Shown: piece after piece, positions 1-13,515 of the stretch
Layout: every line of letters begins with the position of its first letter
How positions within the stretch are numbered: position 1 is the first letter of the stretch
IMG/VR virus record: IMGVR_UViG_3300026518_000663
Coordinates: 1-36,967 of that record
Direction: 5' to 3' (one strand)
From: a virus
DNA: 36,967 nucleotides
Notes under the pieces: generated by a model
What the model was told of the DNA's origin: nothing
The model's input: the letters and a program-made list of their open reading frames with translations, nothing else
The model's database searches: none
Position numbers and translations under genes: made by a program

Positions 1-177
1 CGGGAGTATCCAGCGCTCTGCCTCGCTGCGGTCGAATGATCCACCATTACCAGATTCTCGTTGCTGGTTCTCAAACGAGTCAATAGCGTCTCTGAGGTAT
101 TCCCACGGTTGACGATCCGTTGTATTCGGGCGTGGTGCGACTGTATAAATAATTTCTGGTGTGTAGTAAGTAGCCAT
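1..177 (-). CDS. Hypothetical small early protein, cut by the window edge
   Basis: A leftward reading frame starts with ATG at 177 and stays open to position 1, giving 59 codons with the C-terminus missing. It begins MATYYTPEIIYTVAPRP. A good Shine-Dalgarno, GGGAAGAA, lies just upstream. It follows the gene at 232-426 in the same direction and is probably the next gene of that transcription unit. I recognise no family. In lambda-like phages the integrase often lies at this end of the leftward operon, but nothing in these 59 residues looks like an integrase. Confidence 0.6.
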   Translation of the reverse strand, partial: MATYYTPEIIYTVAPRPNTTDRQPWEYLRDAIDSFENQQRESGNGGSFDRSEAERWILP

Positions 178-197
178 TTTGATTCTTCCCTTTGTTT

Positions 198-215
198 GCC
201 CCGGCTGGCCGGGGC
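198..215. other. GC-rich hairpin between two leftward genes
   Basis: An 8-bp perfect inverted repeat, GCCCCGGC and GCCGGGGC, is separated by 2 bases. It lies between the stop at 232 and the start at 177. Neither strand has a convincing T-run after it, so it may be a weak terminator, an RNA-processing signal or an mRNA stabiliser. Confidence 0.5.
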
Positions 216-231
216 TTTGACCAGTTGAAAT

Positions 232-426
232 TCAGTCAATCCACATTTCAGCGTATTTTTTACCGACGCTTAAATATTCGCCGTAGGTCATGCCTTCCTG
301 GCTGGCGTTTGAAATCTTATCAACCACTGCTTTCTGTACTTGCTCGTCTTCGATCTGCAACTCTTCGGAAACTGCTTCGATCATTTCTTCCCAGTTGCTT
401 TCGTTGATGATTGTTTCGATGTTCAT
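232..426 (-). CDS. Small acidic hypothetical protein
   Basis: The 64-residue product starts MNIETIINESNWEEMIEAVSEEL and is strongly acidic. ATG at 426 is preferred over upstream starts because AAGGA lies 8-9 bases before it. It looks helical, has no cysteines and no membrane segment, and I do not recognise the family. Acidic helical early phage proteins often act as inhibitors or DNA mimics, but that is only a possibility here. It lies just downstream of the attC array and has its own promoter candidate at 484-512, so it need not depend on transcription through the array. Confidence 0.6.
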   Translation of the reverse strand: MNIETIINESNWEEMIEAVSEELQIEDEQVQKAVVDKISNASQEGMTYGEYLSVGKKYAEMWID

Positions 427-483
427 AAGAAAATTCCTTCTTGGCTTATGGCTTCCAGCCCCTTGCTGTCCGTCCATGATTCA

Positions 484-516
484 AATATATGTTAGCGCTA
501 ACGCTTGCGCAAGCGG
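484..516 (-). promoter_or_regulatory. Leftward promoter with nested palindromic operators
   Basis: On the minus strand TTGCGC (512-507) and TATATT (489-484) are separated by exactly 17 bases, which fits a sigma-70 promoter. The spacer contains the perfect palindrome GTTAGCGCTAAC (491-502). The -35 region lies in a second perfect palindrome, CGCTTGCGCAAGCG (502-515). A repressor bound to either would block RNA polymerase. The promoter would drive the genes at 232-426 and 1-177. No regulator for these palindromes is identified, and they do not resemble the 17-bp operator of the immunity region. Confidence 0.55.
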
Positions 517-560
517 TTTCGGAATATATTTTAAATCTTTACATTCGGAACGGCGGCGAG

Positions 561-624
561 AGCAATAACAAAGCGTTCAATCTGGACGGCGCTGGAGCGC
601 CGCCCATTAACGCCGGGTTATGCG
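561..624 (+). repeat. attC-like site 1
   Basis: Left core CAATAAC (563-569), inner box GCGTTCAAT, a GC-rich stem around GGCGCTGGAGCGCC, inner box ATTAACGC, right core GTTATGC (617-623). The left inner box has one extra C compared with the reverse complement of the right (GCGTTAAT). That extrahelical base sets the attC polarity as plus. The left half resembles the class 1 aadA attC (TAACAATTCGTTCAA). Its left end has no matching partner further left, so it is the orphan end of the array. Confidence 0.85.
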
Positions 625-625
625 G

Positions 626-826
626 CTACCATTCGTCCGAAGGTGAATCAGATGCTGCAACACAATCACCGGGACGTATTACGTTCCACATGGCAATTAT
701 GCAATCCTCATTCACTTGTGCAGCTATCGAAAATCCACAGTCAGAGCACCGGATATTCGACCTCTGCATTTCTCGTGATGATTCTGTGTGTACCGAATCC
801 GAATCACAGCTTGGACAGTTGTTCAT
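626..826 (-). CDS. Cassette 1: Lar-like restriction alleviation protein
   Basis: The 66-residue zinc-ribbon protein has C4-x2-C7 and C27-x2-C30 followed by a late A-x-WN-x-x-R stretch (AMWNVIR). This order is typical of the Lar restriction-alleviation family, small phage and prophage proteins that reduce type I restriction of unmodified DNA. The function here is inferred from that pattern only. ATG at 826 follows AAGGCGGA, which lies immediately beside attC site 2. The stop (TAG) lies just before site 1. The ORF therefore fills its cassette almost completely. Confidence 0.72.
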   Translation of the reverse strand: MNNCPSCDSDSVHTESSREMQRSNIRCSDCGFSIAAQVNEDCIIAMWNVIRPGDCVAASDSPSDEW

Positions 827-839
827 CTATTCCGCCTTG

Positions 840-902
840 CGCATAACAATGCGCTGTAAGTTTATTTCGCTGACGCTCAAAATTAAGCGCCGGGTTATTG
901 CT
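840..902 (+). repeat. attC-like site 2
   Basis: Left core CGCATAAC (840-847), which is the reverse complement of GTTATGCG at 617-624, the start of the same cassette. Left inner box GCGCTGTAA and right inner box TTAAGCGC pair except for one extra G on the left, giving plus polarity. Right core GTTATTG at 894-900. Confidence 0.82.
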
Positions 903-1098
903 ACATTTGAACCCTGACGCGCGGCCCTAAACTGGATGAATCTCGCGTCACCCTGAGACCCTCTACCGTTGTCTCGAAAACATCAGGAATTGGGCCGCCA
1001 TGATTGTCTGGTAGGGAACTACCAGTGCATGTGACTTCAATATCTCCCTGAGCTTGTTTGACCTTCTCCAGCTCTGCAATAAGTTGTGATATTTTCAT
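901..1098 (-). CDS. Cassette 2: small phage-type hypothetical protein
   Basis: The 65-residue product begins MKISQLIAELEKVKQAQGD and continues IEVTC. This resembles a common short phage protein of the form 'MKI.ELI..L......GD.EV' found in early regions, with no known function. ATG at 1098 follows GGAGGG at good spacing. The stop TAG overlaps the edge of attC site 2. No membrane segment and no known catalytic motif. Confidence 0.7.
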   Translation of the reverse strand: MKISQLIAELEKVKQAQGDIEVTCTGSSLPDNHGGPIPDVFETTVEGLRVTRDSSSLGPRVRVQM

Positions 1099-1110
1099 AT
1101 GCCCTCCGAG

Positions 1111-1171
1111 AGCAATAACAATAATTTCAAGATGGACGGCTGCGCCGCCGGTTAAAATCTGGGTTATTTGG
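1111..1171 (+). repeat. attC-like site 3
   Basis: Left core AGCAATAAC (1111-1119) is the reverse complement of GTTATTGCT at 894-902, the start of its own cassette. A central stem GGACGGC...GCCGCC and right core GTTATTTGG (1163-1171) follow. The left inner box TTTCAAG against the right TTAAAAT is consistent with an extra base on the left. Positions just before and in the left core share CGAGAGCAATAACAA with site 1. Confidence 0.82.
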
Positions 1172-1355
1172 TCGCAGGTTTAGCCTTGGGCATCCAACTG
1201 TACCTAACGCTGTTGTATGTGAAACACGATACCAGATATAGAGTCCGACATAGTTCGCGCTTAAATTCGTCTTTACATGACACTGACCAGCGTTTTAGTC
1301 GGGTCATTGCGATAGTTATCCGAATAATGTAATAAAATCGTTTAACTGGATTCAT
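1164..1355 (-). CDS. Cassette 3: small basic hypothetical protein
   Basis: The 63-residue product begins MNPVKRFYYIIRITIAMTR and is rich in Arg and Lys, with three cysteines in the second half. GGGAGAAAGAG precedes the ATG at 1355. The stop TAA lies within AAATAAC of site 3. I do not recognise it. The start signal and the fit to the cassette boundaries support a real gene, but of the cassette ORFs this is the least convincing as a protein family. Confidence 0.5.
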   Translation of the reverse strand: MNPVKRFYYIIRITIAMTRLKRWSVSCKDEFKRELCRTLYLVSCFTYNSVRYSWMPKAKPATK

Positions 1356-1370
1356 TCTCTTTCTCCCGCG

Positions 1371-1428
1371 CCAAATAACAAGGCGCTCAAAATGGACGCT
1401 GCGCGCCCGTTAGCTTTTGGTTAGGCGC
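1371..1428 (+). repeat. attC-like site 4
   Basis: Left core CCAAATAAC (1371-1379) pairs with GTTATTTGG at 1163-1171, the start of the same cassette. The inner box GCGCTCAA and the right side TTAGC differ by one extra C on the left. The right core is a perfect canonical GTTAGGC (1420-1426). This is the most canonical attC right end in the array. Confidence 0.86.
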
Positions 1429-1606
1429 TCTGCTTTTGTAGAGCAGGAAGTGAATCAGAAATTATCCCTCTCTCCGCCATTGCGTCGATCATTTGTCTGG
1501 CCACCAGTGCGACCTGCAACCAATCATGTGGATCTGATGTATTACTAGCTCTGTGATACTCCACATTAAAATCATCAGCCATCTCTTGGATTGTTCTTGT
1601 ATCCAT
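1421..1606 (-). CDS. Cassette 4: small hypothetical protein
   Basis: The 61-residue product begins MDTRTIQEMADDFNVEYHR and includes DWLQVALVARQMIDAMAERG, probably two or three helices. ATG at 1606 follows GGAGTAAG. The stop TAA (1423-1421) is formed by the right core GTTAGGC of site 4 read on the minus strand. Family unknown. Confidence 0.65.
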   Translation of the reverse strand: MDTRTIQEMADDFNVEYHRASNTSDPHDWLQVALVARQMIDAMAERGIISDSLPALQKQSA

Positions 1607-1623
1607 AATTCTTACTCCGCAAT

Positions 1624-1685
1624 GCGCCTAACAAGGCACGTAAATCTGACTGCTTCGCAGCAGTTTCGTTTGGGGTTATGATGCC
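1624..1685 (+). repeat. attC-like site 5
   Basis: Left core GCGCCTAAC (1624-1632) pairs with GTTAGGCGC at 1420-1428, the start of its own cassette. The central stem is CTGCTTCGCAGCAG. Left inner box ACGTAAA against the right TTTCGT shows one extra T on the left, giving plus polarity. Right core GTTATGATGCC at 1675-1685. Confidence 0.86.
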
Positions 1686-1939
1686 TTGTAGCCTTCGACC
1701 AACTTCTGTAGCAGCGGCGTTCCTTCATCAAGAAACATAATTTCATTGTGCCCAACTTCTACCCGCACATACTTCACGGTTTCCTCTTCAATAGTAGATA
1801 GTTTTGGTTTTTCGCTGCCCGTCATTATTCCGATTGCGGTCGCGTCGTCATCTATTGGCCACATGACTGACAGGGCTGATTCGTCTACGTCCATATTTTG
1901 ACCATCTAGTGGGCCGCCTATGAATAGAATGCTTTTCAC
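1676..1939 (-). CDS. Cassette 5: FIGGPLDGQ-motif hypothetical protein, GTG start
   Basis: The 87-residue product begins with KSILFIGGPLDGQNMDV. A short N-terminal strand followed by GGPLDG is common in small phage and cassette proteins of unknown function. The start is GTG at 1939, chosen because AAGGAGT lies 8 bases upstream and no ATG fits. The stop TAA is within the right core of site 5. This is the longest cassette ORF and strong evidence that the leftward strand is the coding one. Confidence 0.72.
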   Translation of the reverse strand: MKSILFIGGPLDGQNMDVDESALSVMWPIDDDATAIGIMTGSEKPKLSTIEEETVKYVRVEVGHNEIMFLDEGTPLLQKLVEGYKAS

Positions 1940-1966
1940 TTGTGATACTCCTTATGTTTGACTGAT

Positions 1967-2035
1967 GGCATCATAACAAACATTTGAATCATGGACTTCG
2001 CTGGCGCTCAGCCCGTTAAAATCTGGGTTATTTTG
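1967..2035 (+). repeat. attC-like site 6
   Basis: Left core GGCATCATAAC (1967-1977) pairs over 11 bases with GTTATGATGCC at 1675-1685, the longest own-end match of the array. Left inner box ATTTGAATC against right TTAAAAT shows an extra G on the left. Right core GTTATTTTG at 2027-2035. The right half (TTAAAATCTGGGTTATTT) is nearly identical to that of site 3. Confidence 0.86.
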
Positions 2036-2195
2036 ACATCCAATAGAACAAGCTCCGAGCGGCGCAAGCTCCGTCAACATCAGCACCAATAGACTCAAGC
2101 CAGCACTGCTCCGCCCAAACTGGCAACGTCCGCTGCTTAATTCCCAGTCGCTTACCTTCGCGTTTAAATAGCTTCACCCATTTGCCTTTTTTCAT
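2028..2195 (-). CDS. Cassette 6: small hypothetical protein
   Basis: Starting at ATG 2195 the product is 55 residues, beginning MKKGKWVKLFKREGKRLGI and very basic at the N-terminus. A longer frame running to 2318 would read through attC site 7 and into the PrtN gene, so it is rejected. The Shine-Dalgarno is weak (CAGGT). The stop TAA lies in the right core of site 6. Family unknown; the basic N-terminus could bind nucleic acid. Confidence 0.58.
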   Translation of the reverse strand: MKKGKWVKLFKREGKRLGIKQRTLPVWAEQCWLESIGADVDGACAARSLFYWMSK

Positions 2196-2205
2196 ATTTA
2201 ACCTG

Positions 2206-2272
2206 CAAAATAACAATTTACTTTTGTCAGACCTCGCTGCGCTTCGGCAACAAATCTCTGGGTTAACCTGCC
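2206..2272 (+). repeat. attC-like site 7, at the array/phage junction
   Basis: Left core CAAAATAAC (2206-2214) pairs with GTTATTTTG at 2027-2035, closing cassette 6. The right core is GTTAACC (2262-2268), and its TTA gives the stop codon of the PrtN-like gene. The stem around CTCGCTGCGCTTCGG is less symmetric than in the other sites, and polarity cannot be read from the inner boxes alone. No site further right pairs with GTTAACCTGCC, so this is the right end. Confidence 0.75.
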
Positions 2273-2520
2273 TTTCGCATTTTCTTCCACTGTTCTCGAG
2301 CAGTGGCTGATTGGTCATCGATATATTGAGCCCAGTCGGCTGCGCTGCAAAAGTAGCCAGATTTCCCGGTTTTTTTGTAAAACGGAACCGGCAGGTCGTG
2401 GGCAGCGGCTTTCCGTTTTGCTTGGGCCAGTTCCATACCGAAGTGTTCTTTGCAGACCTGCTCCAGCGGGATCTCTGCGCTGCCGAACTGGTGCATAACC
2501 AGAAATATGGTGGTGCTCAT
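2263..2520 (-). CDS. PrtN-like transcription regulator
   Basis: The 85-residue product starts MSTTIFLVMHQFG and contains AEIPLEQVCKEHFGM and a later region with PVPFYKK. This order (hydrophobic start, 'IPLE.VC..YF' helix, basic helix, 'PVP') matches the pyocin activator PrtN family. PrtN activates pyocin genes in Pseudomonas; related proteins in prophages often sit next to the integrase and may act like excisionases. ATG 2520 overlaps the upstream stop (ATGA). Its own stop lies within attC site 7, so the array begins exactly where this gene ends. Confidence 0.78.
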   Translation of the reverse strand: MSTTIFLVMHQFGSAEIPLEQVCKEHFGMELAQAKRKAAAHDLPVPFYKKTGKSGYFCSAADWAQYIDDQSATAREQWKKMRKAG

Positions 2521-3017
2521 GCGGCCTCCGTCATTCGTTCGAGTTGTCTGATCATGGTTGCGGCTTCGGTGTGGGCGCGATCCCATGGTTTGTGTGCTGC
2601 GAACAGCCGCAGTGCATCGCGCTCTGACCGGTGTAGGTCAACCGCGTGATCTGGCACTATGAAAAAGCCAGAACTGCAGACGTGGTTGAGGTTTTGCTCG
2701 CCGACAAAATCCCAGTGCAGCTGATCGATCTGTGCGTTGATGTCGCTGCGGCTTTTGTGTTCGGTGATGGTGTGGTGATCCGTCTTTGCGAATGGCTCAA
2801 TGCCGTTATCCAGAAAAACGACGATCATAATTGCCCAGGTGTTCCGGCGGTTGAGGATCGCCACGGCATCATCTGTAGTGATGGTGTGTTTTGGGTTGCC
2901 GACCTCAGCACCCTGGCTGGCCATCATGGTGCCGTGCATGTAAAACGTGTTACGGCGGATGTCGTCACGCAGTCGTTGGGCGTTTTTGCCCTGGCGGGCG
3001 CGGGTTGATTTTTTCAT
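2517..3017 (-). CDS. Hypothetical early protein
   Basis: The 166-residue product begins MKKSTRARQGKNAQRLRDD. ATG 3017 is chosen because it overlaps the methyltransferase stop (ATGA), matching the coupling seen throughout this operon. A middle section has AIMIVVFLDNGIEPFAK and a histidine-rich stretch follows. It ends with an Arg-rich helix. I recognise no family. Its position between a methyltransferase and PrtN suggests an early accessory or regulatory function, without further evidence. Confidence 0.65.
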   Translation of the reverse strand: MKKSTRARQGKNAQRLRDDIRRNTFYMHGTMMASQGAEVGNPKHTITTDDAVAILNRRNTWAIMIVVFLDNGIEPFAKTDHHTITEHKSRSDINAQIDQLHWDFVGEQNLNHVCSSGFFIVPDHAVDLHRSERDALRLFAAHKPWDRAHTEAATMIRQLERMTEAA

Positions 3018-3904
3018 GCTGCTTGCCTCTGCTGCTTGAAATATCTTGTTAGTTCTCGGCCAGCCCACTCGGCCATTTGTACTGGTACGCCGTTTCCGAT
3101 CTGTCGGTATGCGGCGGTGTTAGATCCGGGGAATGTGAAGCTGTCTGGTATGCCTTGGAGTCGGGCGTATTCTCGTACGCTGTAGGGGCGTACTCCCATT
3201 GGAAAGCGCTTGTCTTTTACCAGTCGAGTGCTTTTATCTTTGGCGTAATGTGCAACGCATGTAGGTGCGATGTCTCCACGCTCGGGGTCACTGATAATTG
3301 GCAAGTCGCGGTATGCTCCTGTCATTCGATTCTTTATCGCTGACGGGAGGGTTACATCTGGGTTTTTTTCCAGAATGTCGGTCAGGGATATCGCTCGGGT
3401 GTTCTCGGGTGGGCGAATTTTGAAGTGCTTGCGTGTGCCGATAATGATCAGTCGATGGCGGCGCTGCGGTAGCCATGTCTCTGCTTTTACTGGACAGAAT
3501 ACTTGTACGTAGTAGTCTGGCATTCTGGTCATGGCTTCCATGACTATCGGGAACGCTCGCATGCCCGGTACATTCTCAACCAGGTACGCTTCGGGGCGTG
3601 CAATAGCAAGGTGGCGAAGGGCGTGCAAGAACAGTTCATCGCCAGTGCGAGTGTCGTGAATATCGGCTATCCGGCTGTACTTGGTGCACGGGTAGGTAAA
3701 CGCCATCAGATCGCAGCTGTCTTGCTCCAGAACTAGCTGATGGCTGATGTCGCCCTCAACTAATTGGTGGTTGTGGTTTTTCCGATAGGTGGCGCAAGCG
3801 TCTTTATCGATCTCGTATGCTTGGCCGATATGGATGCCGGCGTTTTGCAGGCCGATATCGAGCAAGCCAGCGCCGCTGAAGTAGCTGTTGGCAATGATGT
3901 TCAT
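3014..3904 (-). CDS. DNA (cytosine-5-)-methyltransferase
   Basis: The 296-residue product has the C5-methyltransferase motifs in order: motif I FSGAGLLDIG at 9-18, motif IV with catalytic Cys73 in TYPCTKYS, motif VI ENV at 110-112, motif VIII QRRHR at 147-151, a target-recognition region after that, and a C-terminal GNGVPV motif X. It should methylate C5 of cytosine in a specific sequence. Motif IV reads YPC where PPC is usual, and TKYS replaces the usual Q.FS. No partner restriction enzyme is nearby, so it is a solitary phage enzyme that probably protects the phage DNA. ATGA overlaps join it to both neighbours. Confidence 0.93.
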   Translation of the reverse strand: MNIIANSYFSGAGLLDIGLQNAGIHIGQAYEIDKDACATYRKNHNHQLVEGDISHQLVLEQDSCDLMAFTYPCTKYSRIADIHDTRTGDELFLHALRHLAIARPEAYLVENVPGMRAFPIVMEAMTRMPDYYVQVFCPVKAETWLPQRRHRLIIIGTRKHFKIRPPENTRAISLTDILEKNPDVTLPSAIKNRMTGAYRDLPIISDPERGDIAPTCVAHYAKDKSTRLVKDKRFPMGVRPYSVREYARLQGIPDSFTFPGSNTAAYRQIGNGVPVQMAEWAGRELTRYFKQQRQAA

Positions 3905-4467
3905 CAGACACCCATCCCGATCTGTTCGTGCATGCCGGATTTTTCTGCTGCGCCTTTGGCGGCTGTTGCTGCAATGGCGTCGCGGCGTTTTATGACTGCT
4001 CTGATCCGGGCGGTGGTTGCTTTGCAGCCTCCGCGGAATGTCAGATGGGTTTCGTATAGGCTAATACAGGCGCTGCCAAAGCCTCCGCGCCAGCTGCTTA
4101 GAACCTTGTCGTGCTCGGTGTAGATGGTTGCCGATGGCATAAACCGCTCAATCTCTGCGTACAGTTTTTCAGAGGCTTTGAGCATTTCGTCCATGCGATC
4201 GCAGACGCTTAATAGATCGTCTGCCGTAGCCATGCCAGATTCAATTACGCGTTCAACTTCAGTTTCTATTTCGCCATGGCCTATGCCCAGGTAGGTCATG
4301 CCGTGATTCCAGTGCATGGCATCGGTTGGTTCGCCTTCGGCAAGGTGTATGTTGTGAAGAACGCGAACTGCGCATGCTTCGCCAAGGCTCCGTTGGCTGT
4401 GGCCTTCGGCACTGATGCTGAGTTTTTCAGCCAGTTCTTCTACGGCAAGCTGTCGTGCGAATGTCAT
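3904..4467 (-). CDS. Hypothetical early protein
   Basis: The 187-residue product starts MTFARQLAVEELAEKLSIS. ATG 4467 has AGGAGA upstream and overlaps the previous stop (ATGA). The N-terminal helix resembles the start of the neighbour at 4464-4889 (MAKLAEKLGID), hinting at a shared short N-terminal module. No membrane segment or catalytic motif recognised. Confidence 0.65.
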   Translation of the reverse strand: MTFARQLAVEELAEKLSISAEGHSQRSLGEACAVRVLHNIHLAEGEPTDAMHWNHGMTYLGIGHGEIETEVERVIESGMATADDLLSVCDRMDEMLKASEKLYAEIERFMPSATIYTEHDKVLSSWRGGFGSACISLYETHLTFRGGCKATTARIRAVIKRRDAIAATAAKGAAEKSGMHEQIGMGV

Positions 4468-4889
4468 TGCTGTTCTCCTGGGATTGGTGCCCACTCAATG
4501 ACGGGCATGCATGAGTCGATTGCAATCCACCGGTACTCGTCCCAGTTCATTTGGCGTTCGTAAAAACCCTCGGGGCAGTAGTACGTGTCCGCTTCCTCGC
4601 TGTAATCGGCTTCATCGTCGTCTCCGTGGCTTTCAATGGTGTGCTTCTCAGCGTATTGGCCGACAATCACGAACGGGTCGCATCCGTCGTGTTGTTGTTT
4701 CAGCAGTACCGTTCTCCCGCTTGGTGGGAGTTGGTCGCTGACTTTTGTCCAGGGAGTGTTCGGATGTGGCCTAGTGCACTCGATATGCTTCAGCGCGTTC
4801 TCGCACACGATTTCTGCGAGTTCTTCACGCGGAAGTTTGGCGTGGTCTATGCCCAGTTTTTCTGCGAGTTTTGCCATTGCTTGGTTCAT
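4464..4889 (-). CDS. DUF551-like protein
   Basis: The 141-residue product begins MNQAMAKLAEKLG. Residues in the middle read PWTKVSDQLPPSGRTVLL and the end reads PVIEWAPIP. The W..V...LP..G..VL start and W.P.P end are the signature of DUF551, a small phage domain of unknown function. The region between is acidic. ATG 4889 overlaps the preceding stop. A second DUF551-like gene lies at 10103-10354. Confidence 0.75.
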   Translation of the reverse strand: MNQAMAKLAEKLGIDHAKLPREELAEIVCENALKHIECTRPHPNTPWTKVSDQLPPSGRTVLLKQQHDGCDPFVIVGQYAEKHTIESHGDDDEADYSEEADTYYCPEGFYERQMNWDEYRWIAIDSCMPVIEWAPIPGEQQ

Positions 4890-5176
4890 GAGCGCGGCCC
4901 TTTCGGTAGGCCGATTGCGCACCAGGTGCCGTCTGGGTCATATGGTGCGTCAAGCGGGCAGCGACATTTTGGGTAGTCACACCTCTGTTTTGCTTGGGCG
5001 CTCGTTTTCTGGGTGATGGCGTTGCCGGTGTGGATGCTGACAACGTTGTCCGGTTCCGGCAGTTGCCAGTGGCATAGGCCAGTTGCGATCCGGCGGGCGA
5101 CTATGTAGGCGCTTATGGCTACTGCTGCGGCTGTTGCTGCGAGTATGCAGGCAACGAGTATCAGTGTGGTTTTCAT
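4886..5176 (-). CDS. Small membrane-anchored cysteine-rich protein
   Basis: The 96-residue product has one N-terminal membrane helix (about residues 4-27, hydrophobic and Ala/Ile/Val rich). The tail contains CDYPKCRCPLD and DGTWCAIGL. The C-terminal cysteines could bind a metal. Proteins with this tail occur in other phages without known function. ATG overlaps the stop of the 25-codon gene just upstream. Confidence 0.7.
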   Translation of the reverse strand: MKTTLILVACILAATAAAVAISAYIVARRIATGLCHWQLPEPDNVVSIHTGNAITQKTSAQAKQRCDYPKCRCPLDAPYDPDGTWCAIGLPKGPRS

Positions 5177-5250
5177 GCTGGCGTTCCTATGCAGCCCAAG
5201 GCTGCGGCAATGATGAGTACTACTAAGAATCCGGTGAAGTTGGGTGTCAT
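5173..5250 (-). CDS. 25-residue membrane micropeptide
   Basis: A 25-codon frame from ATG 5250 to TGA 5173 encodes MTPNFTGFLVVLIIAAALGC followed by IGTPA. Its start overlaps the stop of the gene at 5247-5519, and its stop overlaps the start of the gene at 4886-5176, both as ATGA. These exact overlaps, shared with the rest of the operon, are the main evidence that it is translated. It is a single hydrophobic helix with a cysteine, loosely like a lipobox but not a good match. Confidence 0.6.
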   Translation of the reverse strand: MTPNFTGFLVVLIIAAALGCIGTPA

Positions 5251-5519
5251 GCTGCGTGCCCCTTGTAGCCGGATTTAATTCTGTTTTTGTGTCCGTTAAC
5301 GCTGAGCTGCATAGGTGATTGGCCTTTCCAGCCGGGCGCTGCCTGGCCGCGCTTTCGGGATTTTTCTTTTTTACGGGCTACGGCTCCCAGTTCTCCGGCG
5401 GGGTACTCGTCGGGACTGTACGGAAGCTGCTGGATCTGGCCGCCGTTTGCTGTGAATTCGTCGATCTGGCGCTGGATCGCATCGCGTTTTTCTTGCTGAG
5501 CGTCTGTTGTGTGTCTCAT
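5247..5519 (-). CDS. Small hypothetical early protein
   Basis: The 90-residue product begins MRHTTDAQQEKRDAIQRQ and is rich in Lys, Arg and Gln, with a central basic block (ARKKEKSRKRGQ). It may bind nucleic acid. Family unknown. ATGA overlaps join it to both neighbours. Confidence 0.62.
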   Translation of the reverse strand: MRHTTDAQQEKRDAIQRQIDEFTANGGQIQQLPYSPDEYPAGELGAVARKKEKSRKRGQAAPGWKGQSPMQLSVNGHKNRIKSGYKGHAA

Positions 5520-5719
5520 GCGGCGTCTCCTGCTTCCGTGAATTTATAGATCGGGTCGCTGAACTCTGAGGCGGTCACGCCCGTAGTGAATACACCGATA
5601 AAGTCGCCTTCGATCAGGCGTTTGCAGCCGGGTGTCACGATTTCATCGGGGGCCAGTTGGCGCGCGATAAATTGCTCACCTGGCCGGTAGTTTTTCAGGG
5701 GGATGTCTGTGCAGCTCAT
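5516..5719 (-). CDS. Small hypothetical early protein
   Basis: The 67-residue product begins MSCTDIPLKNYRPGEQF and appears to be a short beta-rich domain. Its ATG overlaps the exonuclease stop (ATGA) and its stop overlaps the next start. Family unknown. Confidence 0.6.
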   Translation of the reverse strand: MSCTDIPLKNYRPGEQFIARQLAPDEIVTPGCKRLIEGDFIGVFTTGVTASEFSDPIYKFTEAGDAA

Positions 5720-6321
5720 GGTCGGTTACCCTCTGCGATGTACACCAGCAGATCGCGGGCGGCGATGGCGTCGCTTAGTGCGCGGTGGGCGTTGCCGGTT
5801 CGTTCAATGCCGGTAATTTCAAGGCACTTCGCCAATGAAAGGCGCCTGAACTTACTCTGTTCTGCATCCCATTCGAGGTATTCAGCAAAGTATCGGTTGG
5901 CCAGCTCCATGATGCAGTTGCTTTGGCGGTAGGCCGGTTCGTTCTCTGCGGTCATTTCGCATGCGGCCATGGTCTGGCGAATCATGCGGCTGTTGAACGC
6001 GAGGTTGTAGGCGGCGATATTCAGGTGTTCGTTTTCGAGTGTGAAGAACAGGTCGCCAATTACGTCTTCTGGGTCGCAGCCCTCTTCATCCAGCATGGCC
6101 TGAGTAATGCCAGTCAGGTCGGTGATTTCCTGGCGTGCTTCGTTTTTGGTCAGCGTCAGGGCGTCTTGAATGACTTCGCAGGTCATGCCATCAACGGCTG
6201 CCAGCTCGATGATGGTGTCGGTGTTTTCAAGGCCGGTGGTCTCAGTGTCGATGATGACGCATTCGGTCAGAATGCGGCGGGCCTGTTGGATCAGGTCGGC
6301 TTCGGTGGTTGTTGTGATCAT
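5716..6321 (-). CDS. DEDD-family 3'-5' exonuclease with an altered Exo II motif
   Basis: The 201-residue product has Exo I DTETTGL (D25 and E27) and Exo III H-x4-D (H179, D184), typical of the DnaQ/ExoX-like 3'-5' exonucleases. Exo II reads YNLAFNSRM, so Asn110 sits where the metal-binding Asp of the usual N..FD motif is expected. The fold is clear; full activity is not. Such enzymes can proofread, repair or trim DNA ends. It is the first gene after a 105-base gap and could be translated from its own mRNA segment. Confidence 0.85.
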   Translation of the reverse strand: MITTTTEADLIQQARRILTECVIIDTETTGLENTDTIIELAAVDGMTCEVIQDALTLTKNEARQEITDLTGITQAMLDEEGCDPEDVIGDLFFTLENEHLNIAAYNLAFNSRMIRQTMAACEMTAENEPAYRQSNCIMELANRYFAEYLEWDAEQSKFRRLSLAKCLEITGIERTGNAHRALSDAIAARDLLVYIAEGNRP

Positions 6322-6355
6322 TGCGTTGTCCTTTGCTGGTTTTTCTACTGCGAAA

Positions 6356-6371
6356 GCCCCAATTGAGGGGC
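6356..6371 (-). terminator. Weak terminator or attenuator hairpin
   Basis: Read leftward, GCCCC-TCAATT-GGGGC is followed by TTTC. It lies in the 105-base gap between genes 6427-6774 and 5716-6321. The T-run is short, so read-through seems likely. A second hairpin, GGCGGTC-GTCCT-GACCGCC, lies at 6383-6401. The pair may divide the long leftward operon or be sites for antitermination or RNA processing. Confidence 0.45.
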
Positions 6372-6426
6372 GTATTAGGTTTGGCGGTCGTCCTGACCGC
6401 CATCGCTTAGGGTGCTGAGTGATTCG

Positions 6427-6774
6427 TTATTGAAGCTGTGCCTTCATTTCTTCGATGCGCTGATGGGCGATCTCTGCCGGTGTAATGGCCGCGACCGATA
6501 ACCGCTCTGTGGTTTTAGTGTCGCCGCTATAGAGCGCTCTCAGGTACGTGATGCCGGCGGGCCGTACGGTCAGCATGGTGTGCAGCCTGGCGACTTTGCC
6601 GACCTGGTAGCTGTGGTGTTCTGTGTCGAACAGGTGCGCGGCTTCAGGGCGTGGCATGTTGCGGCGTAACGCATCGCTGTAGAGCATCCCTTCGGTGCGC
6701 AGGCGCTTCAGTAGCTCTGGGCCGGTGGTGTTGAGTTGCACGGCTATGTCTCGGTGGTCAATGCTGAGTGTCAT
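6427..6774 (-). CDS. KilA-C-like (antirepressor C-terminal type) protein
   Basis: The 115-residue product contains KRLRTEGMLYSD and TVRPAGITYLRALY. The 'L...G.LY.......P...............V...G..YL' pattern resembles the DNA-binding C-terminal domain of phage antirepressors (KilAC/ANT). No N-terminal BRO or KilA-N domain is present, so it may be a stand-alone domain. If the match holds it could modify lysogeny, which matters because the CI-like repressor here seems unable to cleave itself. Confidence 0.5.
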   Translation of the reverse strand: MTLSIDHRDIAVQLNTTGPELLKRLRTEGMLYSDALRRNMPRPEAAHLFDTEHHSYQVGKVARLHTMLTVRPAGITYLRALYSGDTKTTERLSVAAITPAEIAHQRIEEMKAQLQ

Positions 6775-7058
6775 GCGGCTTCTCCTGTCATTACGCGAAT
6801 GATCATGGTTTTTGGGCTTTCGAGCGCTGGCAGTTCGTCGATGGCCTGGCCTACGTGATCCAGTGCTGAATCGGGAGCCAGCGCCAGCGCCTCGCGGCGG
6901 CGGGCTTTAAAGCCTGACCAGAAGAACTCTGCTGTTTTCAGCTCGGCCAGTTGGCGTTCTGGTTTGTTCTGCTCGGTTGCGCGCTGCATGGCATGGGCGC
7001 AGCCCCAAAAGCGCAGGCGCATGTCTTGCAGTGCTTGTTCGTAGGCTGGGGTTTTCAT
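6771..7058 (-). CDS. Small hypothetical early protein
   Basis: The 95-residue product begins MKTPAYEQALQDMRLRFWG and is mainly helical, with a cluster of Arg in GFKARRREALAL. ATGA overlaps join it to both neighbours. Family unknown. Confidence 0.6.
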   Translation of the reverse strand: MKTPAYEQALQDMRLRFWGCAHAMQRATEQNKPERQLAELKTAEFFWSGFKARRREALALAPDSALDHVGQAIDELPALESPKTMIIRVMTGEAA

Positions 7059-7231
7059 GCTGCTGGCTCCGGGTCGAAGTCGTCTGCCCGGTTGATCTCT
7101 GCAAACAGGCCGTTGTGGCTGGCCACGATGCGGGCGCCGGTTTCGTTCTCGATGGCGTCCAGTACGTCCAGCATGTCCGGGCGGTTGAACACGGATGGAT
7201 GAATCACGATGTCGGCTTTTGCTGTTTGCAT
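7055..7231 (-). CDS. First gene of the leftward operon, small hypothetical protein
   Basis: Starting at ATG 7231 the product is 58 residues, beginning MQTAKADIVIHPSVFNRPD. A longer frame to 7330 would begin upstream of the promoter and read through the operators, so it is rejected. AAGGC lies upstream at the right distance. It is the promoter-proximal gene of the early operon. Family unknown. Confidence 0.62.
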   Translation of the reverse strand: MQTAKADIVIHPSVFNRPDMLDVLDAIENETGARIVASHNGLFAEINRADDFDPEPAA

Positions 7232-7246
7232 GACGTTTGCCTTATA

Positions 7247-7297
7247 TGTATCTAAACGGTACATATTAAATGTGTACCTTGCGGGTACGTTTGTCAA
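7247..7297 (-). promoter_or_regulatory. Leftward early promoter with two repressor operators (OL/PL-like)
   Basis: On the minus strand TTGACA (7297-7292) is a perfect -35. A weak -10, CACATT (7274-7269), lies 17 bases on. Two 17-bp operators occur: TGTATCTAAACGGTACA (7247-7263) and TGTACCTTGCGGGTACG (7273-7289). The second fills the promoter spacer, so bound repressor should block the promoter. The same operator occurs beside the Cro-like gene, which indicates joint control by the CI-like protein. Confidence 0.72.
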
Positions 7298-7317
7298 TAT
7301 TTTTTTTCGGGTAAGAT
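7291..7317 (+). promoter_or_regulatory. Possible divergent promoter for the accessory pair
   Basis: TTGTCA (7291-7296) and TAAGAT (7312-7317) are separated by 15 bases, shorter than ideal. The -35 overlaps the opposing leftward -35. It would transcribe 7344-8284 away from the early operon, including in the lysogen. Weak call. Confidence 0.35.
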
Positions 7318-7343
7318 TGGGTGGCATCAAAAGGAGGTTTGAT

Positions 7344-7820
7344 ATGAAGGGGTTGGCTGTATTGTTTCTCTTGCCTGTGGTGGCGGTCGCGGGTCAGTAC
7401 CACGTCTGCACAGATGAAAATGGGAAGAAGTCGTTTCAAACGATGCCGTGTAATGACGCTGATCAGTCGGAGGTTCGTGAATATGAGGTTCGTGAGTCTC
7501 TGGGTGGTAGTGGCCCGTCAGCGGGATTGCCGACTGACAGTGATATCTACAAGCAGATGAAGGCAGATAATCGCCGGGCTCAACTGAAACGGGATATCAA
7601 GAAGGGTGAGCGGGCTATTGATCGGTATCAAAAGCAGATGAGTGGCGAGTTGGCGGCGCTGAGGGCGCGTAAGGCTCGCGCAAATAATAATCTGGCGGGA
7701 GCCACCTGGGAGCAAAGCATCAGCGCAGAAATGCAGGCGGTGTCTGATAAGTACGGCAATTTAATCGGTGTGGAGCGTGATCGGCTCACGGAATACAGAA
7801 GGGAGTTATCTGGGTTATGA
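7344..7820 (+). CDS. Secreted DUF4124-like protein (probable lysogenic conversion gene)
   Basis: The 158-residue product has an N-terminal signal peptide (MKGLAVLFLLPVVAVAG), then YHVCTDENGKKSFQTMPC. The 'Y.C.D..G...F...PC' pattern is the DUF4124 signature of periplasmic proteins. The rest is a long charged helix. AAGGAGG at 7331-7337 sets ATG 7344 as the start; longer frames begin inside the promoter. It lies between the leftward promoter and the repressor gene, a common place for genes expressed in the lysogen. Function unknown. Confidence 0.75.
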   Translation: MKGLAVLFLLPVVAVAGQYHVCTDENGKKSFQTMPCNDADQSEVREYEVRESLGGSGPSAGLPTDSDIYKQMKADNRRAQLKRDIKKGERAIDRYQKQMSGELAALRARKARANNNLAGATWEQSISAEMQAVSDKYGNLIGVERDRLTEYRRELSGL

Positions 7821-8284
7821 GTTACATTGATTCTAATATTTTGCCTGGTGAGCAGGTGGTTAGCCGCGCAAATATTCATTGGGTTGTTTTTGTCAGGCCG
7901 GTGTTGGCGGGGTTTGTAGCCCTTCTTTGTTTGGGCTCGCTTGGTGGTGCTGGTGCGGAATCTGATGTCCCTTTGTTGGTATTCGGTACCATCTTCCTTT
8001 TGGTGGCTTTGTGGTCTGGGTTGTCCTCTATTATTGTGAAGTTCTTTACTGAGATGGCGGTGACGGATCGGCGGGTAATCGCAAAGCGGGGTTTTATTCG
8101 GCGGGATACGGTCGAGCTGAACTTGGCGGCGTTTGAAGGTTGTAAGATAGACCAGTCAATAATGGGGCGGATTCTGGGTTATGGTACGGTCACACTGAGC
8201 GGTCGCGGGGGGTTGGTGTCTCCGTTCTTTCCTATTTCTAAGCCGTTGGAGTTTCGCCGTAGCGCTTTGTCCGCCGCAAGCTAA
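7817..8284 (+). CDS. Membrane protein with a bacterial PH-like domain
   Basis: The 155-residue product has two N-terminal membrane helices (about residues 25-45 and 53-72), then FTEMAVTDRRVIAKRGFIRRDTVEL and ILGYGTVTLSG. The 'VTDRR...K.G...R...E..L...' and 'GYGTV.L.G' features are typical of bacterial PH domains (DUF304-like). The ATG overlaps the preceding stop, so the pair is coupled. Its 3' end overlaps the convergent repressor gene by 4 bases. Superinfection exclusion is possible for an envelope protein at this position, but unproven. Confidence 0.8.
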   Translation: MSYIDSNILPGEQVVSRANIHWVVFVRPVLAGFVALLCLGSLGGAGAESDVPLLVFGTIFLLVALWSGLSSIIVKFFTEMAVTDRRVIAKRGFIRRDTVELNLAAFEGCKIDQSIMGRILGYGTVTLSGRGGLVSPFFPISKPLEFRRSALSAAS

Positions 8285-8931
8285 GGCAGTAATGCGCCTA
8301 TGACTTTCGCAACGATCCGAAAAGGTTCGGTGGTCATCGGGAATTGAGGGTTCAGGGGTCTCAGTGCCTCTGTTCCTGCCTCTCTGTATAGCTGCCTGAA
8401 GGCAGTGACTTTATTTGGCCGTTCGGTCAGTTCTGCAATTACAATATCGCCATTTTCGCAATTCTCGACTTGTGCTGGGTCGGCAAAGACGATGCTGCCA
8501 GTCGGGTAGGCTTTTCCGTATTGCGGGTGCATTGGGTTTGCTGCACCTGGTGCTCCCTCTACTAATAACGCAAATGTGTTTGGTCCACATGTGAACGGGC
8601 ATAGGGTGGCATGTTCAGAGCCCTTTTTCCCGATATCCAGATCTCTAATTGTGTATACCGGCACCACTGGGTGGCGGTTAACTGCATACTCAGCTCCGGG
8701 TTCTCGTACCGATATTGAATGGTCGTTGTCCATCCATCCTGTCGGTAGGTTGAAGCATTTTTCTATGTGACGTGCCAGGCTATCGCCGATGTTTTTCGTT
8801 GGGTTTTTGCCAATGAATCTGCTTACTTGAGTTGATTCTCTGTCTATCCGGGCTGAGAACTCCTGCTTGCTTTCGCATTCTTCTGCTAGCTGCCGGGCGT
8901 TGTCTCTGCGGATGTCGCTTATTGTTTTCAT
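8281..8931 (-). CDS. CI-like repressor with a degenerate S24 peptidase domain
   Basis: The 216-residue product has an N-terminal helix-turn-helix (about 10-65) and a C-terminal LexA/CI-like S24 domain: VPVYTIRD, YPTGSIVFADP, NGDIVIAEL and LRPLNPQFP. The usual catalytic Ser region (VEGDSM) reads VEGAPG here, with Pro128 at the serine position. The usual Lys (TFKQL) is Arg179 (AFRQL). No Ala-Gly or Cys-Gly cleavage dipeptide is seen in the linker, which has PGAEYA. It should bind the 17-bp operators but may not self-cleave. ATG 8931 is used; a longer frame would read through the operators. Confidence 0.85.
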   Translation of the reverse strand: MKTISDIRRDNARQLAEECESKQEFSARIDRESTQVSRFIGKNPTKNIGDSLARHIEKCFNLPTGWMDNDHSISVREPGAEYAVNRHPVVPVYTIRDLDIGKKGSEHATLCPFTCGPNTFALLVEGAPGAANPMHPQYGKAYPTGSIVFADPAQVENCENGDIVIAELTERPNKVTAFRQLYREAGTEALRPLNPQFPMTTEPFRIVAKVIGALLP

Positions 8932-8973
8932 CGTTATGGCCTTGCACGTTTTGTGGCTCCTATTGTCCGCTGC

Positions 8974-9043
8974 TGTACTTTTTGGGTACAGGTGCTTGAC
9001 GGTACATATTTCCGGCGCTATCTTGATGTACCTAGGAGGTACA
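8974..9043 (+). promoter_or_regulatory. Rightward early promoter with repressor operators (OR/PR-like)
   Basis: TTGACG (8996-9001) and TATCTT (9019-9024) are separated by exactly 17 bases. Operators: TGTACTTTTTGGGTACA (8974-8990), a degenerate AGGTGCTTGACGGTACA (8990-9006) over the -35, and TGTACCTAGGAGGTACA (9027-9043) after the -10. The last includes the Shine-Dalgarno AGGAGGT of the Cro-like gene, so binding could also affect the leader. The 8974-8990 site faces the repressor gene and may allow autoregulation. No clear leftward promoter for the repressor was found. Confidence 0.8.
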
Positions 9044-9048
9044 TTACT

Positions 9049-9294
9049 ATGACCAAAAAAGAATTCTGGAAGCGCTTGGGGCGTGAGCGAAAAGAAGCCA
9101 TCGCGAACCATGTTGGCACTAGTACTGGATATCTCAGGCAAGTCTTCATGTATGACAAAAAGACTGGTGCTAAGCGTGCGAGGATTCTCGCGGCGGAGAC
9201 TGATGGTCTGTTCGGTGCTCATGAGTTTTGCCCGGATGCGTTTAGTGAATCTGATTCTTTGAGTATTGATTCTCATAAAACAGACGCTGCCTGA
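9049..9294 (+). CDS. Cro-like DNA-binding protein
   Basis: The 81-residue product contains the helix-turn-helix AIANHVGTSTGYLRQVF and a later HEFCPDAF, as in Cro/YdaS-like proteins ('...LRPD.F'). ATG 9049 follows AGGAGGT. It is the first gene of the rightward early operon and lies opposite the repressor gene. It should bind the shared operators and favour lytic growth. Confidence 0.8.
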   Translation: MTKKEFWKRLGRERKEAIANHVGTSTGYLRQVFMYDKKTGAKRARILAAETDGLFGAHEFCPDAFSESDSLSIDSHKTDAA

Positions 9295-9324
9295 CTACGT
9301 TTTCTAAATTAAGGAAAAGACGCG

Positions 9325-9801
9325 ATGAATAGCATTATGACTGCGATGCCGCTGCCGGGCATGTCTCTGAGGGCGGCGATCCGTGAGGATATTAAGCGAC
9401 AGAGGGGCACCACGGCGGTGGCGGCAACAATTATGGGTGTCGGTCACCCTCAGACGGTGCTGAATTACACCTGTGATACCAAGCGTGACACCCATGATAT
9501 GAGCCTGAAACAGTTTGAGGCGCTCCTTGAGTGGACGGACGCGCAATACACCGCTCATGCAGTTGCTGAGATTGCGGGCGGTTTTTTTGTGCCTGGCGTT
9601 GATCCGGTGCAGGGCGTTGATCTGTTTGAGCAGATGGCGAATTCCGTTGCGCGCGTTGGTGAGTTGGGTCAGGCCATTAATGAGGCGATAGCCGATCAGC
9701 GTGTGACGGTCTCAGAAATGAACCGCATTAAGCAGGTGCGTACTGAGTTGGCGGCTGAGATTAATACTCTGGTGAGTATCGCTGCGGGGATGCCGGGATG
9801 A
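9325..9801 (+). CDS. CII-family phage regulatory protein
   Basis: The 158-residue product begins MNSIMTAMPLPGMSLRAAI and contains a region with MGVGHPQTVLNYTCDTKR and LKQFEALLEWT. The pattern 'L....N......H.L.L.E...I...T' is typical of the phage regulatory CII family found in P2-like and Pseudomonas phages. The second half is helical. AAGGAAAAG precedes the start. It would influence the lysis/lysogeny choice or replication; the role here is inferred. Confidence 0.72.
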   Translation: MNSIMTAMPLPGMSLRAAIREDIKRQRGTTAVAATIMGVGHPQTVLNYTCDTKRDTHDMSLKQFEALLEWTDAQYTAHAVAEIAGGFFVPGVDPVQGVDLFEQMANSVARVGELGQAINEAIADQRVTVSEMNRIKQVRTELAAEINTLVSIAAGMPG

Positions 9802-10058
9802 TGGAGGCGGTTGTAGAGCCGGTCCCGACTATCAATCTGAAGATTGGTGCGATCACGTTGGAGGGGCTGCGTAAGGCGGGCTCTCTGGGGCCGTTTCAGG
9901 AGTACCAGGATGAGCAGGGGCGGTGTGTGTATTTGCACGCTGATGAATCGGGTCGGTCTGTGTTGCTTGGTGAGATCTTTGGCAGTTCTGAAACTGTTCA
10001 TGTTGTGAGTATGGATTCAGATCTGGCGGATGAGGTTGGGTTGCCGTTTAGGCGATGA
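9798..10058 (+). CDS. Small hypothetical protein
   Basis: The 86-residue product starts MMEAVVEPVPTINLKIGA. Its ATG overlaps the CII-like stop (ATGA). It looks like a compact alpha/beta protein without membrane segments. Family unknown. Confidence 0.6.
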   Translation: MMEAVVEPVPTINLKIGAITLEGLRKAGSLGPFQEYQDEQGRCVYLHADESGRSVLLGEIFGSSETVHVVSMDSDLADEVGLPFRR

Positions 10059-10102
10059 CCTGAATGTTTTGCGGCAGCCGTTGGGCTGTCCGAGGAGGAG
10101 GA

Positions 10103-10354
10103 ATGACGACTGAGCAAGTTGTTATGTGGAAAACCCCAGAGACTGCGCCGCGAGACGGGAGCACGTTTTTAGCCGCTGTTGGCTACCCGTGGCCAGTGCT
10201 TGCATGTTGGAACGAGCACAACAATGAATTTGTGCTCGCGAACCTGCAAGTCAATCTGGTGGATGGTGAGCAAGACCCATATTTTGAAAACGAATATGAG
10301 CGCATAGGCGCGTTAAAACGATGGATGCCAATACCGGAGCTAGACCATGATTAA
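10103..10354 (+). CDS. DUF551-like small protein
   Basis: The 83-residue product starts MTTEQVVMWKTPETAPRDG and ends KRWMPIPELDHD. The W.....AP.DG start and the W.P.P end are DUF551-like, with ACWNEHNNEF between. GAGGAGGA lies just upstream of ATG 10103, which is preferred over 10064. A second, longer DUF551-like gene lies at 4464-4889 in the leftward operon. Confidence 0.7.
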   Translation: MTTEQVVMWKTPETAPRDGSTFLAAVGYPWPVLACWNEHNNEFVLANLQVNLVDGEQDPYFENEYERIGALKRWMPIPELDHD

Positions 10355-10528: not shown

Positions 10529-11506
10529 ATGTCGGCGCAATTTTCGGAATTTTCGGAGGCTGATTTGGCTGATGTAATACCGATGAATCGTCAGTTTTCA
10601 GGGCGGTTCTGGATGGTTAATGAGGATGAGGATGCGGCTCTAGAGTATCTGCCGCATCGGGATCAGGTGTTGTATCTGCGGGGCATTAAGCCTCATTTGG
10701 ATATGCAGACCGGTCTGGTTGGGGTGGCGCGGCGTTTGTCTTATAAGGGCATGGCTGAGCTTCTGGAAGAGCACAGGGCGCGGGGCAGTACGGTGCCGCG
10801 TGTAGCTATCACTAAGCAGATGGTGCGTGAGTCGGTGAAGCGCCTGGTTGATCGTGGGCTGTTGGATCAGCAGCGGTCAGGTGGGCGTGCTGAGTGGTTG
10901 GTTTTTCGATTGCCTCTGGCGCACTGGGTTTCAGTCCGTCCGTATGAGGAACAACGCAGGAACAACACACCAGCAACAACACGTTCGCATTCAGGTGTGG
11001 CGCAGCTTTCAGAGGGAGCAGCAACGCAGGAGCAACACACCATGAACAACACACATCAAGAGATCAAGAATATTAATAACTCTACTTACGTAGAGTGTCC
11101 GAAACCTGCGGTTTCTGACGCTGACGGCGGTGGTGTTGTTTCAGGTTGTTCAGGTGATCAGGTGTCGTCTCCGCTTGGTCCGTGCCCGCATGCTGAGATT
11201 CTGGATTTGTGGGCTAAGCATTTGCCTGGTTGCCGTCAGCCTAAGCGGGCTCTGTGGTCTCAGGGGCAGGGCGCTCGTAATCTGGCGAACCGTTGGAAGC
11301 AGGCGGCGGCAATCCGGCACAGCATTGAGAGTCGCACGCTCTATCATGATCGGGCGTCTGGGTTGGATTGGTGGCGTCAGTTGTTTGAGTACATTGCGAC
11401 CCGTTGCCCCTTGCTGACGTCGGATGAAACTCGGTGGTTTGATCTGCAGTGGCTGGTGAAGAAAGAGAATTTCCTGAAAACGCTGGATAAAAAATACGAG
11501 GGCTGA
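10529..11506 (+). CDS. Replication initiator or helicase-loader protein
   Basis: The 325-residue product has an N-terminal winged-helix-like region (ITKQMVRESVKRLVDRGLLD at about 96-116, then a basic turn). The C-terminus contains LFEYIATRCPLLTS and ends NFLKTLDKKYEG. The 'W...F.....S..L.....F.L.WL....NF.K.L...Y' pattern is common at the C-terminus of phage replication/helicase-loader proteins. The DnaB helicase follows directly. The start is uncertain: ATG 10529 has no good Shine-Dalgarno, whereas an in-frame TTG at 10565 follows GGAGG and ATG 10583 is also possible. Confidence 0.75.
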   Translation: MSAQFSEFSEADLADVIPMNRQFSGRFWMVNEDEDAALEYLPHRDQVLYLRGIKPHLDMQTGLVGVARRLSYKGMAELLEEHRARGSTVPRVAITKQMVRESVKRLVDRGLLDQQRSGGRAEWLVFRLPLAHWVSVRPYEEQRRNNTPATTRSHSGVAQLSEGAATQEQHTMNNTHQEIKNINNSTYVECPKPAVSDADGGGVVSGCSGDQVSSPLGPCPHAEILDLWAKHLPGCRQPKRALWSQGQGARNLANRWKQAAAIRHSIESRTLYHDRASGLDWWRQLFEYIATRCPLLTSDETRWFDLQWLVKKENFLKTLDKKYEG

Positions 11507-11508
11507 TC

Positions 11509-13499: not shown

Positions 13500-13515
13500 A
13501 TTTCTGGGGTTTGTT

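Follow-up and report, generated by a model that had tools for sequence, protein, structure and literature searches.

The viral record IMGVR_UViG_3300026518_000663 (36,967 bases, analysed as a whole and called the window below) belongs to a lambda-like phage with O-like and DnaB-like replication genes, a repressor, terminase, portal, capsid and tape measure. Judged by its own repressor and by the tyrosine recombinases of its relatives, the phage is temperate. A Dcm-type methyltransferase gene, a conserved gene and a PrtN/excisionase-like gene lead into a stretch of its early region, positions 561-2272, that holds seven attC sites of the kind known from integrons. All seven lie on the plus strand, with TAACAA on the left and GTTA on the right, and they bound six cassettes, each with one small minus-strand open reading frame (ORF) that runs opposite to the attC polarity. 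An earlier note, made from the sequence alone, had proposed seven attC-like sites and six cassettes of 235-352 bp with one small ORF each, set in a lambda-like leftward early region. This description held: the boxes and a covariance model (R1) together identify all seven sites, the R'-to-R' distances between successive sites are 277, 269, 257, 255, 352 and 235 bp, and the array adjoins the PrtN/excisionase-like and methyltransferase genes. That the ORFs lie opposite to attC was not part of the note.

R1 was built from 30 attC sites of bacterial intI loci, with no window sequence included, and was run over all 37 kb of the window with filters off. Six of its seven best hits were sites of the array, all on the plus strand (E from 0.0015 to 1.6), and site 7 was recognised by its boxes. 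Taken singly, four of these six sites have E > 0.1; it is the clustering of the sites and the complementarity of the cassette ends that make the case for an attC array. The pattern TAACAA-N5-TCAA-N3-GGACG matched three times in the window and never in 100 dinucleotide shuffles. Folding of the minus strand as DNA was clear at sites 1 and 5, weak at sites 2-4 (z about -1) and absent at sites 6 and 7, which may thus be decayed. Rfam gave nothing above gathering scores, with two chance-level long non-coding RNA matches at E up to 10. R1 also detected the published arrays of Vibrio phage p16, Shewanella phage M16-3 and phage TJE1, and so works on known cases. Two hand-made attC scanners were dropped, the first because its left box was too strict and most sites were missed, the second as unspecific (15 hits in the rest of the window). 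An isolated R1 hit outside the array (14601-14644, 11.7 bits) ranked fifth and is probably due to chance.

The cassette ends gave the most telling single test. Since an integron cassette is cut out in circular form, its first bases pair with the left box of the attC belonging to it. Across the six window cassettes, R' of one site and R'' of the next were complementary at 48 of 48 bases (8-base ends), 18 of which belong to the fixed GTT/AAC cores; among 720 pairings only the true one reached 48 (mean 35.3), and the two boxes inside one site agreed at just 5-6 of 8. Site 1 had no partner box above 6/8, the record being cut on that side. Over nine arrays, the five bases beyond the core matched cassette-wise at 4.26 of 5 (46 pairs), compared with 2.62 within sites (55) and 2.70 in other pairings (266), a comparison that is partly circular, as some sites of loci L156 and L157 were picked by complementarity; the window figure is free of this circularity. 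Complementary ends of this kind are the sequence signature of units that recombine as circles. The array is real, exceeds chance and forms part of a wider viral set. Next to it, at 472-502, lies half an attC in the opposite direction, whose part at 472-494 and the left arm of site 6 (1974-1996) are complementary at 91%; it abuts the palindrome GTTAGCGCTAAC at 491-502, also the best partner of site 1 (6/8), and the two may mark a former edge of the array or an attI that has been remodelled.

Intergenic regulatory elements, of RNA or DNA, with no more than a likeness to attC would also take the form of hairpins between the genes of one operon, which is where these sites are found, and two of the sites do fold well. 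Such elements would leave unexplained why the ends match by cassette and not by site, and the bacterial attC model recognises six of the seven. The exchange of whole units at G|TT, described below, further speaks against a hairpin role as the sole explanation, with a second role possible. We regard this explanation as extremely improbable.

Table 1. Features of the array and of its surroundings in the window.
Feature	Positions	Strand	Remarks
Gene cut by left record end	1..178	-	
Small gene downstream of array (intI side)	232..435	-	No above-cut-off match (PHROGs, Pfam)
attC site 1	562..624	+	R1 19.4 bits; DNA fold z -4.1
Cassette 1 ORF, 66-amino-acid (aa) zinc-ribbon protein, weakly Lar-like	626..826	-	PF14354 E 3e-4 (below Pfam cut-off); phrog_28152 8e-7; direction scored ambiguous
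attC site 2	840..901	+	R1 11.3 bits; a site of related phage G051 is 95.7% identical over 70 nt
Cassette 2 ORF, 65 aa	901..1098	-	phrog_10692 E 1.7e-6; strong Shine-Dalgarno
attC site 3	1112..1170	+	R1 10.8 bits
Cassette 3 ORF, 63 aa	1164..1355	-	Common to viral record G009, 90% aa
attC site 4	1372..1427	+	R1 15.5 bits; inside G009-shared segment, travels with cassette 3
Cassette 4 ORF, 61 aa	1421..1606	-	No family at E<=0.05 (PHROGs, Pfam)
attC site 5	1625..1682	+	R1 23.1 bits, E 0.0015; fold z -2.7
Cassette 5 ORF, 87 aa, GTG start	1676..1939	-	phrog_25918 E 8e-5
attC site 6	1970..2034	+	R1 13.4 bits; poor fold, z +0.4
Cassette 6 ORF, 55 aa from ATG	2028..2195	-	Longer frame runs through site 7 to 2318
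attC site 7, degenerate	2208..2270	+	Boxes and terminus complementarity; below R1 reporting limit; fold z +0.3
PrtN/excisionase-like gene	2263..2520	-	Upstream of array; phrog_1300 6.5e-20, PF11112 1.6e-13; 67% aa in G020
Conserved early gene	2517..3017	-	Upstream of array; phrog_5434; 61-62% aa in G006/G051, 37% in G020
Dcm-type cytosine methyltransferase	3014..3904	-	PF00145 1e-39; 79% aa in G051, beside the G051 array
Two 37-nt iteron-like repeats within O-like replication gene (O-like by PHROGs)	10946..11052		Candidate origin

The TAAC core box supplies the stop codon of four of the six window ORFs. When ORF direction was scored against attC, five ORFs were opposite and that of cassette 1 was ambiguous; the arrangement that is typical of bacteria without being obligatory there, with ORF and attC in the same direction, was not seen. 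We compared viral with bacterial arrays. Three pattern scans of IMG/VR yielded 70 distinct loci, 20 of which had at least two model sites on one strand. Pairs with terminus complementarity below 7/8 or gaps above 1500 were discarded, whereby L117, L125 and L154 were lost; L115 gave way to L156, a longer locus on the same contig, and L157 was added from a further scan, some sites of L156 and L157 coming from a terminus-chain finder. The resulting 19 arrays, window included, were found independently of ORF direction. On the bacterial side, 48 of 80 intI loci were hand-chosen for upstream sequence and chain-searched, and 33 gave a usable cassette.

Viral cassettes ran predominantly opposite to their attC sites (39 of 49, with 4 same and 6 ambiguous), whereas 68 of the 76 bacterial integron cassettes ran the same way as theirs (6 opposite, 2 ambiguous; Fisher exact test, P = 4e-20 by cassette and 2e-9 by array). 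Counted by array, opposite to same was 17:1 in the viral set and 3:29 in the 33 bacterial loci (one tie). The viral ratio leaves out L116, which holds one ambiguous cassette only, and its sole 'same' array, L133, depends on a doubtful right box. Four long arrays in the viral collection, which we call chromosomal type from their array length, site length and direction, scored normally (same:opposite 10:2 for L178, 7:1 for L201, 8:0 for L209 and 3:0 for L215), so the ORF scoring does not force reversal.

Arrays such as these four fit with capture of a host array by a phage, which has been published, for example for Vibrio phage p16 (accessible text of PMC9892861). The window array could likewise be a piece of an ordinary bacterial integron array picked up from the host, that is, a cluster of attC sites lacking an integron integrase (CALIN), and its boxes do fit a model of gammaproteobacterial attC. 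Such an origin sits poorly with ORFs that are opposite to attC here and in most arrays of the same attC type, with arrays placed in the same operon region of four related phages, and with the proteins themselves: none of the 49 viral cassette proteins had a tblastn match in the 80 bacterial intI loci (E<=1e-3), and some match phage families. We therefore hold host capture to be quite improbable, and the suggestion in the earlier note that the genes were collected from host integrons meets the same two objections, the lack of matches and a polarity opposite to that of bacterial cassettes.

Protein families were scanned for 45 of the 49 viral cassette proteins; the four excluded were L002_8005 and L099_4718, whose direction is ambiguous, L133, which reads same, and L156_6699, which is opposite and was dropped without a test. 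The 45 proteins matched 32 PHROG families, nearly all without a named function among the 25 listed, and five Pfam families, namely Dam methyltransferase, Phage_gp49_66, ASCH and the Lar and Elf1 zinc ribbons, the last two with matches below cut-off. The minus-strand protein of cassette 1 resembles phage zinc-ribbon families in PHROGs. Because the matched families mostly lack a named function, 'anti-host genes' is a guess from context.

Three viral records, G006, G020 and G051, have portal and terminase families and neighbouring genes in common with the window. Their arrays lie near homologues of the window's neighbours: the methyltransferase in G051, the conserved gene in all three and the PrtN-like gene in G020. 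Gene order varies: in the window and G020 the conserved gene lies upstream of the array; G006 and G051 have it on the downstream side. A tyrosine recombinase gene lies about 0.3-2.5 kb from each of the three arrays, in G020 directed against the cassette ORFs. None of the window's cassettes was found in the compared parts of these three records. Cassette 1 resembles a cassette of L157 (43% over 84 aa, with site 2 96% alike), a likeness that we did not count as shared because we read it as mostly translated attC.

Cassette 3 is shared with an otherwise dissimilar record. Positions 1163-1423 of the window, which cover it, are 90.8% identical in DNA to viral contig 3300025671_000081 (G009). The shared segment begins and ends exactly at G|TT, with differing sequence upstream and a different cassette downstream, and elsewhere blastn of the window against the compared 35 of 55 kb of G009 found attC stretches only. 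G009 is viral by collection only, three portal/terminase models having given no match. G009 also carries two copies (91.7%) of a 1.45-kb cassette; each follows a different attC, and their ends likewise fall precisely at G|TT. The duplicated cassette (7161-8612 and 10012-11463 of L156) carries a gene for a tyrosine recombinase of 375 aa. Both the cassette 3 junctions and the G009 duplication thus have the form expected of a cassette moved as a unit cut at G|TT, and crossovers at the plus-strand GTT support our reading of site polarity. The earlier note had seen in the locus a gene-swapping store, and had named identical cassettes in all related phages as what would speak against it. We looked for such fixity and did not find it; the same region holds other cassettes in three relatives, and one cassette is exactly common to a dissimilar viral record.

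The attC sites could also be relics, with cassettes now moved by homologous recombination between similar attC copies: few viral records carry intI, some attC types are up to 96% identical between records, and sites 6 and 7 fold poorly. Homologous recombination would hardly place the junctions of cassette 3 and G009 exactly at G|TT on both sides next to dissimilar attC sequence upstream, and the cassette-wise complementarity is intact in the window and high in the nine arrays, where L156 and L157 make it partly circular. We judge the relic explanation unlikely.

The earlier note described the array as lacking an integron integrase (IntI). A family search found no IntI in the window record, which stops about 560 bp beyond site 1, on the side where a further viral record, G015, has intI. 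As the record ends where intI would lie, absence of an integrase cannot be concluded. G015 holds the trio of a complete integron, intI, an attI-like box and an array. Its IntI scored 422.8 bits (cut-off 265) and is 45% identical to a Shewanella IntI, and its alignment matches the R-K-H-R-H-Y set at the invariant positions. About 48 nt ahead of the ATG taken as the start of intI stands the attI-like box, GTTATGTG, whose complementarity to the first attC is 8/8. Presumed cassette genes, intI, a methyltransferase and a phage integrase are co-directional in G015, and the record also has terminase, capsid and portal genes.

A wider scan of viral contigs gave 85 IntI relatives, of which 80 were kept, 70 were scanned for attC and 48 were used for gene direction (perhaps 47 independent, as the result for L198 equals that for L200). 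Genes upstream of intI were co-directional with it at 23 of the 48 viral loci, mixed at 20 and divergent at 5, compared with 1, 6 and 31 of 38 bacterial loci. Of the 23 co-directional viral records, 12 also matched a terminase or portal model, as did two of the four chromosomal-type ones (L209, L215). Cassettes at the IntI-found viral loci were 31 same, 7 opposite and 3 ambiguous in all, with L178, L201, L209 and L215 contributing 28 same and 3 opposite. What IntI shows is thus wider in scope than what the arrays show, and the two do not coincide.

Several IntI relatives stood out. L173-L242 comprise dozens of IMG/VR contigs with IntI relatives at 40-60% identity to the G015 IntI. L171 has two intI copies in one contig (7878-8963 and a shorter one at 4584-5489; 923 nt at 92%), in line with many small genes; the product of one of these and a G015 cassette protein agree at 67% over 55 aa. 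In KX853513 (Virus Rctr41k; L253), the gene annotated xerD at 4680-5678 is an IntI relative (40% to the G015 IntI), preceded by ten co-directional ORFs.

The sites, their polarity, the reversed ORFs, the unit-exact exchange, the differing cassettes in relatives and the array-attI-intI order of G015 can all be read from the sequences, and on these grounds we consider it likely that the array consists of genuine integron cassettes, forming a phage-borne integron variant that stores exchangeable early genes in reversed polarity. Several observations weigh against this. R1 did not report site 7, which like site 6 looks decayed. No IntI above cut-off was found in 23 of 24 other viral records (records that may be fragments and do not all hold counted arrays), and L171 and KX853513 have IntI relatives with no convincing attC (best 8.2 and 10.4 bits). 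One of the four scored cassettes of G015 reads 'same', as do three of the ten scorable cassettes at IntI-found viral loci outside the four chromosomal-type ones (4 opposite, 3 ambiguous). Both sites detected in the published virulent phage TJE1 lie on the ORF strand. The viral arrays were retrieved by patterns modelled on the window attC and so sample that attC type, and the simple ORF-direction score errs at times, for example at two plus-strand window ORFs that we took as spurious. R1 misses other attC types, having returned no site from 48.0 of the 48.7 kb of published P12002L and none from the initial 50 kb of PH101.

In the mechanism that we propose for such a phage integron, each cassette would run as attC, Shine-Dalgarno and ORF along phage transcription, and the order of genes suggests that the phage early promoter reads leftward through the cassettes. 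The junctions suggest that IntI recombines folded attC bottom strands at G|TT and so moves whole cassettes; IntI could be encoded by the phage (G015 is an example, with intI following as the next co-directional gene), by the host or by another resident element. Insertion keeps attC polarity, so the early promoter would read each inserted reversed cassette in sense, and because only reversed cassettes would be expressed in the operon, selection for them may be expected. The outcome would be a swappable set of small early genes. Present-day recombination, the enzyme acting in this phage and the roles of the cassettes we infer from sequence.

Reversal may also favour turnover. With the origin in the O gene, the attC bottom strand, here the minus strand, would be the lagging template of a leftward fork. 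According to a review (accessible text of PMC8946536), lagging-template placement favours attC folding, and array orientation relative to replication sets the excision rate. Reversal should moreover leave phage genes silent in a bacterial integron and host cassettes silent in the phage, and would thereby close the phage cassette pool. Putting these points together, we offer more tentatively, as a possibility short of an even chance, that temperate phages have an integron lineage of their own. Reversed cassettes would place the recombining attC strand on both the lagging-strand template and the non-template strand while genes run with the fork and the early transcript, favouring folding and turnover; reversal would silence cassettes across the phage/host divide, closing the phage pool as a shared store of early, perhaps counter-defence, genes. 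The non-template-strand part is an idea of this analysis, and the origin in the O gene may or may not be the true one, being a candidate only.

The closest terminases among named phages were 38-40% identical (Pseudomonas stutzeri, Marinobacter). The Dcm-type protein resembles Yersinia and Vibrio phage proteins at 73-74%, which says little about the host. Megablast of window positions 1-20000 against phages gave no match, and a database search of viral contigs (IMG/VR) with the PrtN-like protein returned no relative. Between the early operon and the repressor, at 7209-8284, lie two rightward genes, which resemble genes for a DUF4124-type protein and a membrane PH-domain protein and may be lysogenic cargo.

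The early regions of phages are mosaics, and where small anti-host genes are exchanged precisely in them, this is usually credited to recombination of the illegitimate or homologous kind. Cassettes bounded by defined sites would provide a site-specific route of exchange and predict the exact boundaries of the exchangeable genes; the genes between phage attC sites could thus be a way to new small phage effectors. As gene and recombination site are uncoupled in direction here, the arrays also bear on why integron polarity is as it is, and they suggest that integrons serve as a tool for phages and not for bacteria alone. A census of the IMG/VR contigs with IntI relatives, using attC models made for further bacterial groups, would be worthwhile.

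Integron components in phages have been described before, by Qi et al. 2023 (PMC9892861), a study overlooked in the earlier note, which held that such an attC cluster, to its author's knowledge, does not belong to standard phage biology. According to the accessible text of that study, 10,705 phage genomes contained one In0, three complete integrons and 17 CALINs, IntI1 recombined attI1 with five of the six phage attC sites assayed, and methyltransferases were among the cassettes. Like those phage CALINs, the window array is an attC cluster within a phage genome, with no IntI in the record as far as it extends; the accessible text holds no report of systematic ORF reversal, of arrays in one operon region of related temperate phages or of exact inter-phage exchange. 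Nor did we find systematically reversed phage cassettes reported in the mostly open-access literature covered (published articles, not preprints), including the accessible text of PMC11551772. A reversed example may already be in print unremarked: MW202573, a phage of the Qi list, has one weak site (E 0.27) on the strand opposite to the ORFs, near a gene annotated excisionase. As far as our searches show, the reversed ORFs, the other cassettes in relatives, the exact exchange of cassette 3 and the arrangement in G015 are new.

Sedentary chromosomal integrons (of Vibrio, Shewanella, Marinomonas and other genera, here the 80 intI loci) have in common with the phage arrays the attC structure, the cassette-wise terminus complementarity and usually one ORF per cassette, and in G015 the resemblance extends to the customary layout of intI, attI-like box and attC direction. 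They differ in that their ORFs run along attC and the genes upstream of intI are divergent from it, as in the bacterial counts given above, whereas the phage form is mostly the other way round. Treponema 'reverse' integrons likewise have intI and cassette genes transcribed in the same direction (accessible text of PMC3607928), but there intI itself is turned toward attI, whereas in G015 the geometry of intI and attC is the usual one and it is the ORFs inside the cassettes that are turned.

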